A stretch of DNA of 64,000 bases, taken from Spirosoma foliorum (GTDB lineage: Bacteria; Bacteroidota; Bacteroidia; Cytophagales; Spirosomataceae). The translations under genes were made by a program, and so were the position numbers. The stretch is from assembly GCF_014117325.1 (NCBI RefSeq), contig NZ_CP059732.1:3609001-3673000 (forward strand), read 5' to 3'. Each line of letters starts with the position of its first letter. Positions within the stretch are counted from its first letter, which is position 1. This document shows positions 18,012 to 31,708 of the stretch, piece after piece. The notes beneath the pieces were generated by a model. It did no database searches and had not been told where the DNA came from. It saw only the letters and a program-made list of their open reading frames with translations.

Positions 18012-19064
18012 CTACCACCAACGCGGCTTCACAGGAGTCCGGTACTGGCTATTCTCACAAACAATACAAGCTGATAGCGATGCTATTGTATAAACCGGGT
18101 TCGTGTAAACTGGCCGGCCAATGGCATTACTCCGATCTACCAGCACGTGGCTAACCGACTCTCCCACAGCCCCAAAATACCCGTAGGCAGCGGCTCCTGA
18201 ACCAGAAACCGAATGAATATTTCCCACTATACTTCCTGGTGCTGCATCAAACAAACCACCCGTATTCGTCACTTGCTGTCTCGCTGCTTTAAAGAACTCA
18301 TAAATACCCTTACTCAACCGCTGCTGGGTTACTTCCAGGTAATATTTTTCGCCGGAAGTATAAGGTACACGCGTAATAAACTGTCGACTGATTGAATTTC
18401 CGTTGATGTTCACATCAGACATAATATTGATGCAGTTGATGTAACAACGGGTAATATCCCAACAGTCGGAGCAACAGGGAATTCCTTCATAATGGTTTGT
18501 CACATACACCAGCTTACAAACATTTGTAAACTCGTAATGAGCCCATTCCCAGCGGTAGAAATCGCCGGGCGTTTCGGGGTCTTTACTGTCAACGTAGACA
18601 TCCCATCCATTGGCTTGTCCGTTATCTGACGCTCCCGATTGATACCGATATTCGTAATACAATCGACCAATCGGTGGCGATGCTTTTATCTGTTCTGTCT
18701 CTGACTCATATTGTTCGCCATTTTGGGTTTTAATCGTCAGTTTATAGGTTCTACCCGCCACGCCCTGTATACTCGATGTCCTATAGTTTCCGCCCGGCGA
18801 TTGTTCTATAAGAGTTTCCTTATTCCCCAGATCATCCGAAATAATTACCGTTGCCCCGGTTTCGAGCAGGTTTAAGCTCTTGTACGAGTAGTCGGCGGTG
18901 CGCGTCAATTTCACAAAATAGGGCCCCGGTTGATCGGTAATCAATCCTTCTACAACCAAAGCGGGCGGTATACTGATACTGTCTGGCTGATACTCGGTCA
19001 CACACGAAATAACCAGTACCAAAACCAGTAAGAACGGTGCGTATACGTAGCCGCGCGACCACAT
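18012..19064 (-). CDS. DUF4249 lipoprotein, first of three paralogues
   Basis: A 350-residue lipoprotein (LVLVLVISC lipobox) with the DUF4249 start TEYQPDSISIPPALVVEG. It is the most diverged of the three, yet keeps the cysteine cluster GIPCCSDCWDITRCYINC and the CIVCENSQYRTP tail. Its ATG overlaps the stop of the receptor gene (TGATG), so translation is probably coupled to the receptor. Confidence 0.88.
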   Translation of the reverse strand: MWSRGYVYAPFLLVLVLVISCVTEYQPDSISIPPALVVEGLITDQPGPYFVKLTRTADYSYKSLNLLETGATVIISDDLGNKETLIEQSPGGNYRTSSIQGVAGRTYKLTIKTQNGEQYESETEQIKASPPIGRLYYEYRYQSGASDNGQANGWDVYVDSKDPETPGDFYRWEWAHYEFTNVCKLVYVTNHYEGIPCCSDCWDITRCYINCINIMSDVNINGNSISRQFITRVPYTSGEKYYLEVTQQRLSKGIYEFFKAARQQVTNTGGLFDAAPGSIVGNIHSVSGSGAAAYGYFGAVGESVSHVLVDRSNAIGRPVYTNPVYTIASLSACIVCENSQYRTPVKPRWW

Positions 19065-21470
19065 CAGAATTTAAAATTATAGGTCAACGATGGAAAAGCT
19101 GTTCCGAAAATTGACAGCTTATACGCATCGGTAGCAGAGGCAGGACTCAGTTTATAGAAGATCGAATACGCGTTTTTGTGAGCGTACACATTGTAAACGG
19201 AAAAGACCCAACTGCTCTGGTTTTTCTTTTTCTTGAGCGGATTTTGCTCAAACGTCATCGAAAAATCGAGCCGGTGATAATCAGGAACCCGCTGTTGATT
19301 TCGGTCGACATAGATCGGAACCAGTACCCCGGCCACACGGGCAATGGCTGCGGGTTGCGTGGTTGGGCGGCCTGTGCTATACGTAAAATTGAGCGACATG
19401 CTAAACCAGGCTGTTGGTCGGTGCGTAGCCAGTACGTTCAGTGTATGCGGCTTGTCGTAATTCGCCGGATATGGATTGCCATTGTTTACTCGTTCGCTGG
19501 TGTAGGGGCTGTCCATAGTCAGGAATGTGCGGGCAAAGGTGTAGCTCATAAAACCTGTCCAGCGACCTTTATTTTTTCGTAGCAATCCTTCAAATCCGTA
19601 AGCTTGCCCCTTTCCCTGTACAATCTGAGTTTCTACTGCCTGGGCTAGTTGCAACTCAGCACCGTCGCGATAGTCAATCGCATTCGTCAGGGTTTTATAA
19701 TATACTTCGCCCGATACTTCAATGGCATTGTCTGACGTATTTCGGAAATAACCTAACGACCACTGATCGGCAATGACCGGTTTTGTGTACTGATCACTCA
19801 AATGCCAGCGAGAAGTCGGCAAAGCGGCCGTTGTATTCGTCACTTGCTGAATATATTGACGCAATCGGCTATAGCCTGCTTTAATCGCTTTCCCCTCGCC
19901 TACCGACCAGCGGATTGCCAGTCGAGGCTCCAGCCCGCCCGTAGAATGGTAAATTTTGCCAGCTCCATACGTTTGAGTCGATGTGACGGTTTCATCTTGA
20001 CGAGGCCCGTTTTCCTGATACGTTCGTACTGTGGCAGGCCCTCGACTCAATAATGCCGAATAGCGCAAACCGGCTACTAAGGCTACGTTTGTATTGATTT
20101 TCCACTCGTCCTGAATGTAAGCTGCCAGTTCGTAGGCTCGTTCACGGTCAAGATCTACCGGCAGTACGTTGGAATAGGGACCAGGCGTCCGGGTGTTGGG
20201 TTGAATTAAATAATCGATAGCGCTAAGGCCCACCTGCCACTGATGCGTCTCGTTGGGTGTAAATGTCAGATCGGATTTGATCTGTTTGTGCCACACGCCC
20301 GACTCAAGTTGGAACGCATTCGATGAATCGGGCGATGATAAATTGGCCCGATATCGACTCAAAATAACCGCCGTCGCCAGATTGACTTGCTTATTCATGA
20401 AGTAATTCCAGCGCAATACGGCATTCGACGTCTGATAGTTGAACTGGGTCGACGACGCATTGATCTCCTGCCCCGAGAGCGAATCAGACGCCAGCTTGAA
20501 AATATCTTTACTGATATAACCTGTCAGGGTAATCGTGTTTTTCTCATCTGGCTGATACTTAAGTTTCGTCGTCACATCATAGAAGTTGGCCTTTGTTCCT
20601 CTCAGGTTCGGCGGAGCTATCTTGAACAGAAAATCATTGAACGAAGCCCGGCCAGCCGCCAGGAATGACAGTTTGTTTTTGATCAGTGGCCCTTCAACCG
20701 CCAACCGGCTTGAGATAATGCCAATTCCTCCGTTGATACCCCATTTCTCCGCATCAGGCTCTTTGATTTTCACATCCAGCACCGATGACGCTCGACCTCC
20801 ATACGCAGCCGCAACGCCCCCCCCGATTCAGGGTTACGTTGCTCACAACATCGGGATTGAACACCGAGAAAAAACCCATCAAATGGCTGGAATTGAAAAC
20901 AGGGGCATCATCAAAAAGAATCAAATTCTGATCCGCACTGCCCCCTCGAACGTTATAGCCGGGTGCCCCCTCGCCTACCGTTGTTACACCGGGCAATAGC
21001 AGAAGGCTGCGCACGATATCCACCTCGCCCATCAACGGCGGGATGCGCCGGATGCTTTTTATGGTTAATTGGGAAACACCGATTTCAATTTTACGCACGT
21101 TGCGATCCGGTGCTTCACTCGTCACGACAACCTCTTCCAGGTCTTTCGAATCATCTTCCATCGTGATTTCACGGAAGAGCGTTTTTTGCAGCGAAATCGT
21201 GTCCTGCTTAGACCTATAGCCTACGTGTGAAAACCGCAGAATGTAATTCCCTGGCGGAAGCTGCACCGTATAGAACCCATCCTTTGCCGTTACGTAGCCT
21301 TTGGATACGTTCAGTACTACGATGTTCACTCCCTGAATAGGCTTACCCGTTTTCACATCCTTGACATAGCCCGTCGCCGAAAACGTAGGTCCGTTAGGAT
21401 TTACTCGTTGCTGGGCAACTGCCCCATTGATCAGACAAAACGACAGTAACAGTAAACGTAAAAAACGCAT
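19064..21470 (-). pseudogene. TonB-dependent receptor, frameshifted in a G8 tract
   Basis: Two overlapping frames make up one receptor of about 800 residues. The first (21470 to about 20820) has a signal peptide, a carboxypeptidase-like domain (GYVKDVKTGKPIQGVNIVVL) and the plug (GAPGYNVRGGSADQNLILFD). The second (to 19064) has the rest of the plug and the beta-barrel ending in YNFKF, an outer-membrane C-terminal Phe. At 20817-20824 the coding strand has eight G; reading seven gives NRGGVAAAYGGRASSVLDVK, the expected plug sequence, so the lesion is one extra G. It may be phase variation or a sequencing error. Apart from this the gene is intact. Three DUF4249 genes follow. Confidence 0.88.
20817..20824 (-). 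repeat. G8 homopolymer at the receptor frameshift
   Basis: Eight consecutive C on the plus strand, G on the coding strand, inside the plug domain of the TonB receptor. One base fewer restores the reading frame exactly. Confidence 0.9.
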
Positions 21471-21614
21471 AGAACCAGGTTTAGAAAGCGCGGATTAGCC
21501 AGCAGGAATATTACTAACGATAGATAGGTTAATCCTATAAAAGGGGTAATCTACTTGATTTACCCTATTTCTATTGTCATTAACCAATAATTAATATTCC
21601 TTAGCTAACCTAAC

Positions 21615-22361
21615 TTATGCTCTCTTACGCACGTTCTCCCGTCGCTGTTGCAGGTAGTCGTTCATACTTTCATCTTCCTTCTTACCGGGGTAGAGCAGTT
21701 TTGCTATTAGAGTATGCACTTTTGTACACGGGTTGTGATTGGAGTAATCAGTTTGTCCAGCAAATACTGCCTCCAACCTCTCAGCCCACAAAATTGCTTG
21801 TTCTTGATTTCCGTGCTTAATGAGCAGGTCATACATTTCCCGGCTATTTTTATTATAAGCAAAAGGAAGTCCCATTTTTTGAGCTAACTCTTTCTCAAGC
21901 TTGGCTTTATACTGGCCACGAGACATACCATGCTGGACGAATTGAAAATGAAGGAGGAACCACAGTTCAAAAGCTTCATTGGTCCAAGCACAGTGAACGC
22001 CGACATCACGCCCTTTAGAAATTGCATTATTAAACCGTTGTGCAGGAAAGTCATCTCTATCAAATACTGCCCAGACTTCATCAAACACTCTCCCCGAAAA
22101 CTCTTCTTGACGCTTACGAATTTCTAAAGCGTCATTGACAACAGTAAGTGGATCATGACCAGTCCCTTCCGCATGAAGGTCTACCATCTCAATCATCCCT
22201 GGCCGCAAACTCTTTTTAAGCCCATTGAAGTAATTCGGCTCAGTTTCAGTCCCTTCACAAACGATCAAATAGTACTTACGTTTGGCTTGGATATCCTGTT
22301 TTCGGGAAGTTTCTTGACGAGCAAATCGCTTACTATCAACTTTAATCGCTTTTCTGGCCAT
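21615..22361 (-). CDS. rloB: RloB-like protein, putative TOPRIM-type nuclease
   Basis: A 248-residue protein with the RloB opening KYYLIVCEGTETEPNYFNGL and VWAVFDRDDFPAQRFNNAI around residues 97-115. The Glu in VCEG and the DRDD acidic pair sit on predicted strand ends as in TOPRIM folds, which is my inference. RloB genes were first noted within restriction-modification loci. Its ATG overlaps the stop of the ATPase gene (TGATG), so the two form one unit. The C-terminal MNDYLQQRREN is encoded by the same 32 bases as the end of polX, so the tail seems to be borrowed from polX at the insertion point. Confidence 0.85.
   Translation of the reverse strand: MARKAIKVDSKRFARQETSRKQDIQAKRKYYLIVCEGTETEPNYFNGLKKSLRPGMIEMVDLHAEGTGHDPLTVVNDALEIRKRQEEFSGRVFDEVWAVFDRDDFPAQRFNNAISKGRDVGVHCAWTNEAFELWFLLHFQFVQHGMSRGQYKAKLEKELAQKMGLPFAYNKNSREMYDLLIKHGNQEQAILWAERLEAVFAGQTDYSNHNPCTKVHTLIAKLLYPGKKEDESMNDYLQQRRENVRKRA
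21634..21665. repeat. 32-bp direct repeat, copy at the end of rloB
   Basis: Identical to 23756-23787 over 32 bases and in the same orientation. Similarity stops sharply on both sides. It lies in the last codons of rloB and marks one edge of the ATPase/RloB module. Confidence 0.95.
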
Positions 22362-23632
22362 CAGGATGCTAGTTTCGATAGATCACCAATGAATGGAATA
22401 GCTCCGTAGCGTCCCCGAATATAGTCCTCCTCAAACGAACGGTCTTTACGGACTTTTGTGCCATCTTCTTCCTGATATTCAACTAATGAATAGAGACTTG
22501 TTGCTCCATATTGGTCTTTTTCAGTGAAATAAATCTGATCGCGTCTGAATAGCTTGCCTGAGAGAAGATTCGTATCATGAGTTGCAAAAATCAATTGTGC
22601 ATTATTCGGATTTAATTCAGGTTGGTTGAATAGACGAATAATCGCTTGAGTCATTAGGGGGTGTAACTTGGCATCAAGTTCGTCAACTATTAAGACGCCA
22701 CTATCTTCCAATGTATCGAAAATTGACCCCGACAAATCGAATAATTTATTTGTGCCAGACGACTCATTTTTATCTAAATCAAAAAATTCGTAGCCTATTA
22801 ATTTTTTCTCTGCATCAAATTTTTGGTGATGTGTTTCAATAGTTGTTAACTTCCCATCTTTTAAACCATCCACCAAAAGTCTTTTAAATTCATCGGTAAA
22901 TCCGGTTAGATCGTCAATTGGAAAAGATTCTTGCCCGAAGCTTATATTATTAATTCCTAAGTCAACCCTATTGATAAATTTCAATAAATTAGATTGATCA
23001 TTTTTTTCTATATTTCTCATAGTAAATCTCCGAAGTCTTTCATGAGATATACCAGAAATAGATACAAGCTGGCTAAACCACTCCAGAATTCGCTTAGCTA
23101 ATTCTCCATTGAATTGGTCACATATAGCCAGAAATAATGCATTATCACGTGTTCTCTCTTCTAATCCTTTACCTTCTTTAAAATCTTTAAATACGTTAAT
23201 TTCATTCTTTTCTCGTAGAAAAAGTGTTTTTTCCTGTTCTTTCCGAGCCATGAACAACCATTCTGATTGCACTACTTTTCGATCAACCTCAAAGCCGTAA
23301 CGATATCGAATGCCACCAAGTAAAAATAACACCTCAAAGTAGCTAGGCTTCCCTTCCGTTTCTGTACTAAGTCGAAATGGCTCAACCTCAATAGAATCTG
23401 TTGAAGAATGTCTAGATGAAGTTGTTACAATCAGGCTCATAGTCTCCATTGCCTTCAACACATTCGACTTCCCACTTGCATTAGCCCCGTATATGACCGC
23501 ACTTCGCAATAACTTATAACGCCCTGCATCAATCAACTGATCGCGGTGTTCGCTGATTGACGCTGCGTCTAACCGCAAAGTCTGTCGGTCTTTGATCGAA
23601 AGAAAATTGCCAACACTGAATTCAATAAGCAT
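22361..23632 (-). CDS. AAA15-type ATPase (RloA-like), partner of RloB
   Basis: About 423 residues from the ATG at 23632. It begins LIEFSVGNFLSIKDRQTLRL, standard for AAA15/OLD-like ABC ATPases. Walker A is YGANASGKSN near residue 50; the C-terminal half has Walker B and D-loop SGVLIVDELDAKLHPLMTQ and the H-loop FATHDTNLL. Between them is a long helical arm. Such ATPases sense phage or DNA ends and license a partner nuclease (Gabija, PARIS, OLD); here the partner would be RloB. Base composition is visibly more AT-rich than in flanking polX. Confidence 0.85.
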   Translation of the reverse strand: MLIEFSVGNFLSIKDRQTLRLDAASISEHRDQLIDAGRYKLLRSAVIYGANASGKSNVLKAMETMSLIVTTSSRHSSTDSIEVEPFRLSTETEGKPSYFEVLFLLGGIRYRYGFEVDRKVVQSEWLFMARKEQEKTLFLREKNEINVFKDFKEGKGLEERTRDNALFLAICDQFNGELAKRILEWFSQLVSISGISHERLRRFTMRNIEKNDQSNLLKFINRVDLGINNISFGQESFPIDDLTGFTDEFKRLLVDGLKDGKLTTIETHHQKFDAEKKLIGYEFFDLDKNESSGTNKLFDLSGSIFDTLEDSGVLIVDELDAKLHPLMTQAIIRLFNQPELNPNNAQLIFATHDTNLLSGKLFRRDQIYFTEKDQYGATSLYSLVEYQEEDGTKVRKDRSFEEDYIRGRYGAIPFIGDLSKLAS

Positions 23633-23659
23633 AAGGAGGTAAAGATTATTACAATTCAA

Positions 23660-23702
23660 AAATGACTAAAATTTGAGAAAAAATCTCAAATTTTAGTCAT
23701 TT
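23660..23702. terminator. Perfect hairpin between polX and the ATPase gene
   Basis: AATGACTAAAATTTGAGA (23661-23678) pairs fully with 23684-23701 around a five-base loop. On the minus strand the stem runs into TTTTT, so it could end polX transcription. It lies inside the segment bounded by the 32-bp repeats, so it came with the module. It may equally be a repeat of the palindrome class. Confidence 0.6.
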
Positions 23703-23742
23703 TATATATCTTTCTAACAAGTACTCCAAGAATCTTCAATTA

Positions 23743-25446
23743 TTATCCCCGAATTTTCTCCCGTCGCTGTTGCAGGTAGTCGTTCATTTCTGGTAAGGTC
23801 AGTGCATTAAAGGTCATGGCTTTGGTTAAGCCCCCTTTTCGGCCAACGGCCACGCCATAGTGCATATCCAGCAAACCAGCCAAATCGTGCGCGTCGGGGT
23901 TAATACTGAGCATGACGCCCTGCTGCATGGCATACTCGATCCAGCGCCAGTCGATATCGAGACGGTACGGGCTGGCGTTGATTTCGATCACGACGTTGTG
24001 TTCAGCACAGGCGTCGATGATGGCCCGGTGATCGATGGGGTAACCTTCTCGAGCTAGTAACAATCGGCCGGTTGGGTGGCCAAGAATCGTTGTGTATGGG
24101 TTTTCGATGGCCTTAAGCAAGCGTGTGGTTGCTTTTTCGAGCGACATCGTTAGGGTTTGGTGGACAGACGCCACGACATAATCGAAGGTGGCTAGTGTAG
24201 CATCATCGTAATCTAAGGAACCGTCGCTTAAGATATCTGACTCAATGCCCTTGAAAATACGGAAGTCATCGCCAAAACCTTTGTTAAGTTCATCAATTTC
24301 AAGTTGTTGCTGTTGTACCCGTTCCGCATCCAGCCCGCCCGCGTAGGAAGCCGTTTTGGAGTGGTCGGCAATACCGAAATACGTTAAACCCAATTCGCGG
24401 CAGTAAGCCGCCATACCCGCCACCGATTGCTTCCCATCCGACCACGTACTGTGGTTATGGAGCGTTCCGCGAAGGTCTTCCCAGGTTACGAGCTCGTCGT
24501 TATGGTGGCGACTTGCCCAGCGAAAGGCGAAGTCATCTTCGCGCATTTCAGGAACGATGTAGGGCAAGCCTGCCCGTTCATAAATCGCGGTTTCGACGGT
24601 ATCTGTCGTTGTGTAAGCTGCCTGCAAAAGCGATACGCCTGTAGGTCCAGCCTGTTTCAAGTGAGGCTCGGCAGCGCTATGAATAAACAATTGCTGGTCG
24701 ATCTGGCTGGCAGAATAAAACAGAATTTCCACCTGCACATCGAATCCATTGAGTTGCCCACGCCACACAAACGGCGACGATTCTCGTTCATTTTGAACCA
24801 GATTGGGCAAATTGCTCAACGTCAGCATGGCCGATACAGGATCGCTGGTTTGGACGAGTAATTGTATCGTATCGACTTCCTGTGCTTTCAAACGAACCTG
24901 CCCACTGACTTCAACTCGCTCAAAGTGTTTTATCAGTTCATCATGTAACATATTGGCGATCATGGCCGCTTTATCCATACGCACTTTGCCCTGTTGCTCC
25001 TGCAAAAACTCCAGAGCAGCCAGAATTTTCTCCTGCGTGCTAGCCCCAAAGCCTTTGATCTTCGCAATCTGACCGTTCTCTCCCGCTAGCTGCAAATCAC
25101 GCAGGTTGTCGATACCCAGCTCACGCCATAATGTACGTACTTTCTTGACACCCAGCCCTTTGATACGAAACATATCCAGCACGCCCGACGGTGTTTCGGC
25201 CATTAACTCATCAAGTTCAGTCAGGCGGCCTGTTTCAGCAATCTCGCGGATTTTCTGAGCAATGGATTTACCAACGCCTTGCAGCTTAACTAACTCGTCT
25301 ACAGGCAAGTTAGCCAGATCGGCAGTTGATTTATCCAGGTTAAACGCGGCTGTCTGGAAGGTACGAGTCTTAAATTGATCGCGGTCGTGGAGTTCCATTA
25401 ACCGGGCCGTTAGTTCGAGCAGGTCAACGATTTCGGAATTAGTCAT
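23743..25446 (-). CDS. polX: PolX-type protein: HhH, degenerate polymerase X and PHP domains
   Basis: A 567-residue protein of the bacterial PolX family (DNA repair polymerase/exonuclease). Residues 1-150 hold helix-hairpin-helix motifs (LVKLQGVGKSIAQKI, FRIKGLGVKKVRTL, KIKGFGASTQEKI). The polymerase active site is eroded: the GSxRR motif is GQVRL and the DxD pair is DTIQ. The C-terminal PHP domain is intact, with LHNHSTWSDGK, GIADHSKTASY, IFKGIESDILSDGS, VVASVHQ, LGHPTGR and SINPDAH. So it is probably a nuclease without polymerase activity. Its last codons carry the 32-bp repeat. Confidence 0.9.
   Translation of the reverse strand: MTNSEIVDLLELTARLMELHDRDQFKTRTFQTAAFNLDKSTADLANLPVDELVKLQGVGKSIAQKIREIAETGRLTELDELMAETPSGVLDMFRIKGLGVKKVRTLWRELGIDNLRDLQLAGENGQIAKIKGFGASTQEKILAALEFLQEQQGKVRMDKAAMIANMLHDELIKHFERVEVSGQVRLKAQEVDTIQLLVQTSDPVSAMLTLSNLPNLVQNERESSPFVWRGQLNGFDVQVEILFYSASQIDQQLFIHSAAEPHLKQAGPTGVSLLQAAYTTTDTVETAIYERAGLPYIVPEMREDDFAFRWASRHHNDELVTWEDLRGTLHNHSTWSDGKQSVAGMAAYCRELGLTYFGIADHSKTASYAGGLDAERVQQQQLEIDELNKGFGDDFRIFKGIESDILSDGSLDYDDATLATFDYVVASVHQTLTMSLEKATTRLLKAIENPYTTILGHPTGRLLLAREGYPIDHRAIIDACAEHNVVIEINASPYRLDIDWRWIEYAMQQGVMLSINPDAHDLAGLLDMHYGVAVGRKGGLTKAMTFNALTLPEMNDYLQQRREKIRG
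23756..23787. repeat. 32-bp direct repeat, copy at the end of polX
   Basis: Encodes MNDYLQQRRE near the polX C-terminus. Exact match, including all synonymous positions, to 21634-21665. Confidence 0.95.
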
Positions 25447-27090: not shown

Positions 27091-27093
27091 TTT

Positions 27094-27187
27094 CTTTGTC
27101 ATTCCGACGATAGGAGGAATCTCAAGGTTTCCTTACTCTCAAATAAGGATAATTCAAGATTCCTCCTGGCGTCGGAATGACAAAAAA
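27094..27187. repeat. Family A palindrome
   Basis: Arms TTTGTCATTCCGACG...GGAGGAATCT near 27095-27125 and its complement near 27154-27185, imperfect at the inner end (GATAGG against CTGGC). It lies between the convergent monooxygenase and pentapeptide genes. Confidence 0.9.
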
Positions 27188-31620: not shown

Positions 31621-31704
31621 TTTTTGTCATTCCGACGCCAGGAGGAATCTCAAGTTTCCTATTGATAAAGCTTGAGATTCCTCCTGGCGTCGGAATGACA
31701 AAAA
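31621..31704. repeat. Family A palindrome, 34-bp perfect arms
   Basis: Arms at 31621-31654 and 31671-31704 are exact complements (TTTTTGTCATTCCGACGCC...CTCAAG) with a 16-base loop. It sits inside the sugar operon between permease and kinase genes. Confidence 0.95.
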
Positions 31705-31708
31705 ACTG

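Follow-up and report, generated by a model that had tools for sequence, protein, structure and literature searches.

A compact AbiL defence module probably inserted in the last codons of polX in Spirosoma, with an exchange of gene ends

How does a small defence unit without a recombinase come to lie in the very end of a protein-coding gene? This question is raised by polX, a gene of the DNA polymerase X family, in Spirosoma foliorum contig NZ_CP059732.1, positions 3,609,001 to 3,673,000 (this 64,000-nucleotide stretch is called the window, and all positions below refer to it). A preliminary description of the window had reported an ATPase gene and rloB between two copies of a 32-bp repeat and had read them as a 2.1-kb unit integrated in the polX 3' end. 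We confirmed the observation and found support for the reading: with a probability of roughly three in four, a compact AbiL module would have inserted, in the Spirosoma lineage, among the final codons of polX, duplicating part of its target and carrying no recombinase of its own. The repeat copies (21634-21665 and 23756-23787, spaced 2,122 bp apart) are identical at 32/32 bases, silent positions included, both encode MNDYLQQRRE in frame, one in RloB and the other in polX, and the identity ends sharply at the left and right edges. The 32-mer occurs twice in the whole 8.85-Mb genome, with no third copy when up to 3 mismatches are allowed. Among the exact direct repeats spaced at most 6 kb in the window, five of which reach at least 20 bp, no other is as long. 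Since polX conserves about 58% of its third codon positions relative to its nearest relatives, nine third positions would all be identical between copies that had diverged for so long with p ~0.007, which makes a chance origin of the repeat very unlikely, and this value understates the case because it is a further oddity that RloB carries the peptide at all. No support turned up for a chance or convergent likeness of two short coding ends, and we consider its probability negligible given the copy count across the genome, the exact silent positions, the native sequence that runs on behind RloB and the empty sites of relatives, which already contradict it.

To compare polX 3' regions, we used 40 relatives (35 Spirosoma) together with the window, giving 36 genus genomes that include S. 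arboris (G034), S. telluris (G016) and S. validum (G009). The open reading frame (ORF) of a TonB-dependent receptor starts 43-192 nt behind polX in 28/36 of them (receptor identity was confirmed with Pfam in S. arboris and the window, and a similar start was used for the rest), and this receptor is the right neighbour of polX across most of the genus. Relatives with the empty site have a single polX tail, as the preliminary description had anticipated. Four genomes (G003, G020, G022 and G031) have other genes behind polX with no tail copy seen, and another four (S. foliorum, S. telluris, S. validum and G001) have cargo between polX and the receptor with a copy of the polX tail at its far border. 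When the flanks of the S. foliorum insert were joined and aligned to S. arboris, 293/358 positions were identical with 4 gap columns, versus 246/380 with 48 gap columns when polX was taken in its current form. The sequence behind RloB, at the right copy, matched the post-polX sequence of S. arboris in 92/114 columns and that behind polX, at the left copy, in 60/132; the same comparison with G014 gave 85/114 and 64/128, respectively. Read against these relatives, the AbiL module shows as an insertion that interrupts the order of polX and the TonB receptor. The locus comprises the following features.

23743..25446, minus strand: polX (HHH + PHP, DNA polymerase X family), the target gene; Pfam HHH_8, HHH_5 and PHP
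23756..23787, no strand: left repeat copy, within the polX 3' end; exact match
23743..23755, minus strand: current polX end past the repeat (KIRG and stop), judged to be insert-derived; no match to what follows polX in G034 or G014
21666..23755, minus strand: inserted segment, 2,090 bp, as delimited by the ORF list and by polX-receptor adjacency in 28/36 genus genomes
23659..23703, no strand: perfect inverted repeat in the polX-AbiLi gap, each arm 20 bp long, with the core WTGAGA-N5-TCTCAW at 23673-23689
22361..23632, minus strand: AbiLi-type AAA ATPase, 423 aa from a conserved ATG; PADLOC AbiLi 1.3e-97, Pfam AAA_21 8.7e-39
21615..22361, minus strand: AbiLii/RloB, 248 aa including the captured tail; Pfam RloB 1.9e-47, PADLOC AbiLii 7.9e-28
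21634..21665, no strand: right repeat copy, within RloB; exact match
21615..21665, minus strand: native polX 3' end in its displaced position, read in frame by RloB as MNDYLQQRRENVRKRA before the stop; 16 codons from M, as in polX of G034 and G014
21471..21614, minus strand: native polX downstream spacer, now behind RloB, aligned to the empty sites of G034 and G014; it appears to hold a terminator-like hairpin
19064..21470, minus strand: TonB-dependent receptor gene, frame-broken; Pfam TonB_dep_Rec_b-barrel, Plug and CarbopepD_reg_2

The comparison with relatives further shows which gene end went where. The native polX end, from MNDYLQQRRE to the stop codon and on into the spacer, sits behind RloB in this alignment, and RloB reads into it in frame and thus terminates at the former stop codon of polX. 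The 16-residue tail of RloB with its stop codon is, on this evidence, displaced polX sequence, as had been proposed. This displaced piece is longer than the repeat, extending from 21665 to the RloB stop at 21615 (16 codons and the stop) and followed by native polX downstream sequence, so the 32 bp are exact as a repeat and too short as a boundary. As for polX, which was said to have been kept intact, its reading frame does remain open, but its end has changed, and its final codons no longer run on into native sequence. We judge that the current end arrived with the insert, since it is the sequence behind RloB, not that behind polX, that matches the native polX 3' end of relatives; it may itself be an old polX end. 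RloB ends in 16-codon pieces in both S. foliorum (MNDYLQQRRENVRKRA) and S. telluris (MTDYLQRRRTKIRKKL), which is the polX tail length of G034 and G014, while the polX tails of the two species themselves have 14 and 20 codons. Tail length is weakened as proof of the direction of exchange, since 14 codons, as in the current polX end, is the most frequent length among the genus genomes (22/36, with 16 codons in 5/36), and it is the flank alignment that bears the argument.

The only ORFs of at least 100 aa between the repeats are the two adjacent minus-strand ORFs for the AAA_21 ATPase and RloB, which fit the PADLOC profiles of AbiLi and AbiLii, and neither is a recombinase, in line with the preliminary description. 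By profile, then, the cargo is AbiL, a two-gene abortive-infection system for phage defence. AbiL is described as such a system of Lactococcus, with AbiLii/RloB related to OLD-type TOPRIM domains, in two papers (PMC12409363, PMC10440598). Family membership suggests that the ATPase would be a phage-triggered sensor and the TOPRIM-type protein its effector; a PDB sequence search gave no match for RloB (E up to 1) or AbiLi (E up to 0.01). We screened the last 40 residues of RloB homologues for the polX-like pattern and found it in 2 of the 120 listed among 1,183 matches, namely those of S. foliorum and S. telluris, both beside polX. The other 118 listed homologues lack it, RloB elsewhere ending earlier, which rules out such a tail as a general RloB trait within this set. 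The S. foliorum genome also holds a second, distant RloB relative with 34% identity (G000:C1:638318-638698).

Cargo at the polX end is seen in other species as well. In S. telluris, AbiL lies at the same place and a downstream copy of the polX tail matches over 19 bp at 95% (E 7.6e-4). In S. validum, AbiL again lies there, with a polX copy whose final 18-19 bases, stop codon included, are exact and whose earlier bases have decayed; RloB stops short of the border in this species, leaving the copy outside the gene. Other cargo between polX tails, which the preliminary description had suggested looking for, was found in G001, where 3.8 kb of unrelated sequence lies between 92-bp copies at 95.7% identity and the close sister G019 (polX 95.1% identical) has an empty site. 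Four ORFs of this cargo were scanned, giving a carboxypeptidase-regulatory domain (weak, below the cut-off), a DDE_Tnp_4 transposase, which is a transposase remnant, and two ORFs with no Pfam match. Compared with G019, the G001 copies share 2 changed bases; the left copy has 4 further changes of its own and the right copy 1. Given the polX-like ends, one copy may have been borne by the element. The repeats at polX thus measure 32, 19, 18 and 92 bp, the 18- and 19-bp ones looking like decayed remnants. They start at the same M codon in S. foliorum and S. telluris; in G001 the start lies 107 nt ahead of the stop, and in S. validum, where earlier bases have decayed, it lies some 17 nt ahead. Together, these comparisons show at least three differing junction structures, namely those of AbiL in S. 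foliorum and S. telluris, AbiL in S. validum and the unrelated cargo of G001.

At three Spirosoma loci (L071, L083 and L097) the contig behind polX is short, and a distant second copy could escape there; a search of the 36 whole genomes with a 35-residue polX tail listed clear second copies in S. foliorum and G001 only and not the short ones of S. telluris and S. validum. polX was matched in 140/149 genomes searched, S. foliorum included, and no downstream tail copy was found in 60 polX genes of other genera or in five further non-genus polX genes. At two loci of another genus (L100 and L101, in G037 and G072), polX is separated from a receptor-like ORF by two ORFs, with no polX-tail copy. Control gene ends, taken from ORFs of at least 200 aa followed by 3 kb or more of sequence and counted without matches below 19 bp, had a direct downstream copy in 5/876 cases, of which three were tandem lipoprotein paralogues (L093 and twice L132) and two were 20-bp matches. 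The Fisher p was 0.0028 with S. foliorum included, 0.027 without it, 0.008 when the paralogues were also dropped, and 0.0026 without S. foliorum when the 19-bp rule was lifted for polX but not for the controls. These statistics are modest; that the tail copies lie just at the cargo border strengthens the case in a way not captured by the tests.

We also compared 12 AbiLi loci, 10 close and 2 distant, at polX and elsewhere. A GAGA-N-TCTC palindrome stands 29-106 nt before AbiLi in 8/10 close loci, whether at polX, ispF or other sites, and is absent in G070 and G109; of the distant loci, G033 has it at 213 nt and G077 has none. The strict 17-bp form WTGAGA-N5-TCTCAW occurs at five places in the S. 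foliorum genome. The hairpin behind polX was set aside as a transposon end, since a similar palindrome precedes AbiLi away from polX, and it looks like a putative operator, possibly for AbiL autoregulation, or a transcript hairpin. Among six non-polX AbiL loci (L121-L124, L126 and L127), no repeat was listed at both module borders, with the L121 sequence beginning 197 nt before AbiLi and 5/11 repeat families shown for L127, so that these loci lend no support to AbiL always duplicating its target. A 195-bp repeat in L122 is unrelated, lying upstream in what read as tandem nucleotidyltransferase-like genes. At L122 and L128 (G020 and G013), AbiL lies directly behind ispF, and in G022 and G031 ispF is followed at once by another gene. 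No ispF tail copy was seen in G020, and the G013 module is split over two contigs, which leaves its far border not comparable. Altered ispF ends in S. telluris and G001 were read as frameshifts, not insertions.

Elsewhere in the window, the receptor gene at 19064-21470 is frame-broken near a run of eight G, where the intact genes of G014 and S. validum have seven; the receptor gene is broken in S. telluris too. Phase variation, decay and sequencing error are alternative explanations. A repetitive extragenic palindromic (REP)-like palindrome with 44-nt arms lies at 27092-27187, 31 bp of which recur exactly at 31675-31705.

When did the module arrive? The polX tree, built without the last 120 alignment columns, reads (G014,(own,(G034,G016))), own being S. 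foliorum, with supports of 0.977 and 0.979 and with S. arboris (G034) empty. In the RloB tree (43 of the 120 listed homologues, P0003-P0045; G109, G070 with its in-frame stop and a partial G013 copy were left out), the S. foliorum and S. telluris proteins group together with support 90, and the RloB/polX junction is identical to the codon in the two species. On the other hand, the AbiLi tree (10/12 loci, the distant G033 and G077 left out) places S. foliorum with G009, G002, G020 and G013, not with S. telluris (supports 97 and 99). Silent sites could not date the split between these two species, their divergence being too high. The S. foliorum and S. telluris copies are probably one old insertion, and G009 and G001 look like separate events. 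If the insertion is old and common, the perfect 32 bp in S. foliorum would call for gene conversion or re-insertion, because, with third-position identity down to 58% since the split, 32 bases are unlikely to have all stayed identical. The likely course would begin with one old insertion; the module would later have recombined internally, S. arboris would have lost it, and the S. foliorum copy would reflect gene conversion or re-insertion. That the insertion was simply inherited vertically by S. foliorum and S. telluris and lost in S. arboris, with conversion alone keeping the 32-bp copies identical and no recent movement, has somewhat less than an even chance; the polX tree, the junction and the RloB grouping favour it, while the AbiLi grouping and the need for conversion over a 32-bp tract do not.

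On the reading we prefer, a module consisting of the palindromic leader, the AbiLi ATPase and AbiLii/RloB would enter the last codons of polX and duplicate part of this target, the unit having no recombinase of its own. The joining step would most likely be repair of a break in or beside polX, or a RecA-type exchange between polX-tail copies. The repeat may then permit precise loss and re-gain of the unit, which would account for the perfect 32 bp in S. foliorum as well as for the empty site in its sister S. arboris. Several points weigh against this insertion with target duplication. If the S. foliorum and S. telluris copies are one old insertion, as is probable, the perfect 32 bp is no fresh target duplication, and identity between the two species reaches 0.84 in the RloB window next to the junction, the RloB maximum (one AbiLi window equals it). 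The S. telluris and S. validum copies are short and each is weak alone, AbiL lies behind ispF in G020 with no border repeat, and no break, excision or circle was observed in what is a comparison of sequences. Site specificity is hinted at by the left breakpoint, which falls at or just after CGACGGGA and is nearly equal in S. foliorum and G001. Lastly, KIRG resembles an ordinary polX end, KIR recurring in G034, G014 and G024 and 14 codons being the commonest length, and therefore fits an element that already bore a polX end, as in attachment-site integration. The repeated choice of one gene end, the near-common breakpoint and the polX-like current end count against purely random insertion, so that an integrase acting in trans and homologous exchange stay in contention as rivals.

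Integration by a tyrosine recombinase in trans at a polX 3' attachment site would make the unit a decayed or satellite element whose polX end restored the gene and displaced the native end, as islands do at tRNA genes. The likeness to tRNA 3' ends drawn in the preliminary description holds for the restored gene, with its polX-like end of ordinary length, and the displaced native fragment, but not for an integrase gene, which the S. foliorum insert lacks. The AbiL inserts of S. telluris and S. validum likewise show two ORFs of at least 80 aa in the polX-receptor interval, and integrase families were not matched by any of the four G001 cargo ORFs in a scan that covered these and the S. foliorum insert. 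The genome of S. foliorum has 17 PF00589 matches, the nearest about 208 kb away, and the near-common left breakpoint and re-use of one site speak for such an enzyme, while the differing repeat starts of S. foliorum/S. telluris, G001 and S. validum speak against it; we regard it as unlikely. It is doubtful, too, that the whole stretch from polX through cargo to receptor was exchanged between species as a minimal mobile element by recombination of its flanks, the repeats being relics of the original event. One site with varied cargo (AbiL alleles and that of G001) would fit, as would the conflict between the AbiLi and RloB trees over S. foliorum and S. telluris, by which the module seems recombined. 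On the other hand, exchange alone cannot account for the origin of at least three differing junction structures, and the S. foliorum right flank is by eye closest to S. arboris and not to a donor like S. telluris; in a scoring that covered S. arboris and G014, S. arboris came out higher.

We tentatively propose that in Spirosoma the last codons of polX may serve as a permanent docking site for small cargo lacking an integrase, which would enter and leave via polX-tail copies. Each entry could give polX a new end and pass the old one to the cargo, and the polX C-terminus would thus have been handed to a defence protein as an in-frame domain. The exchange of gene ends and the repeated use of one protein-coding site are unusual, and in the open-licence literature, as represented by titles and abstract openings, there was no apparent report of such movement of AbiL or of insertion at polX. 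Many small defence systems have no mobility enzyme of their own, which raises the question of how they move. At this locus the borders have survived, a filled site has an empty close sister and one gene end is used by varied cargo, which makes the joining step testable; the locus also offers a concrete route by which a defence protein gains a foreign C-terminus.

How does this locus compare with known systems? Insertion of restriction-modification units with long target duplication was reportedly described by Nobusato et al. in 2000 and Furuta et al. in 2010. The polX locus resembles such insertion in having defence-type genes versus an empty site, direct target copies of variable length at the borders, no recombinase in the unit and an empty single-copy target in relatives (28/36 genus genomes; G019 for G001). 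It differs in that the cargo is AbiL, or other ORFs in G001, and no restriction-modification system, that one gene end is re-used within the genus, and that the last codons are hit, with cargo and target swapping ends. The repeats here are 18-92 bp versus about 100 bp in a review; insertion with long target duplication is described in PMC3874152, PMC3031569, PMC4978471 and PMC1643837. With genomic islands at the 3' ends of tRNA or protein genes (Islander; SGI1 at trmE), the locus shares a target restored by element sequence and a native fragment at the far end; it differs from integrase-type islands in having no integrase in the insert, a size of only ~2 kb and a repeat start that varies among inserts. 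Like Lactococcus AbiL, the module is by profile a two-gene operon of an ATPase (AbiLi) and a RloB/TOPRIM-type AbiLii; here the putative system is chromosomal and carries a polX-derived tail on AbiLii. In Neisseria, minimal mobile elements are said to place alternative cargo between the same conserved genes. The polX locus is set apart from these by target copies at its borders and by no evidence of transfer by transformation, and it is like them in holding varied cargo between the same flanking genes, AbiL in 3/36 genomes and other cargo in 1/36.

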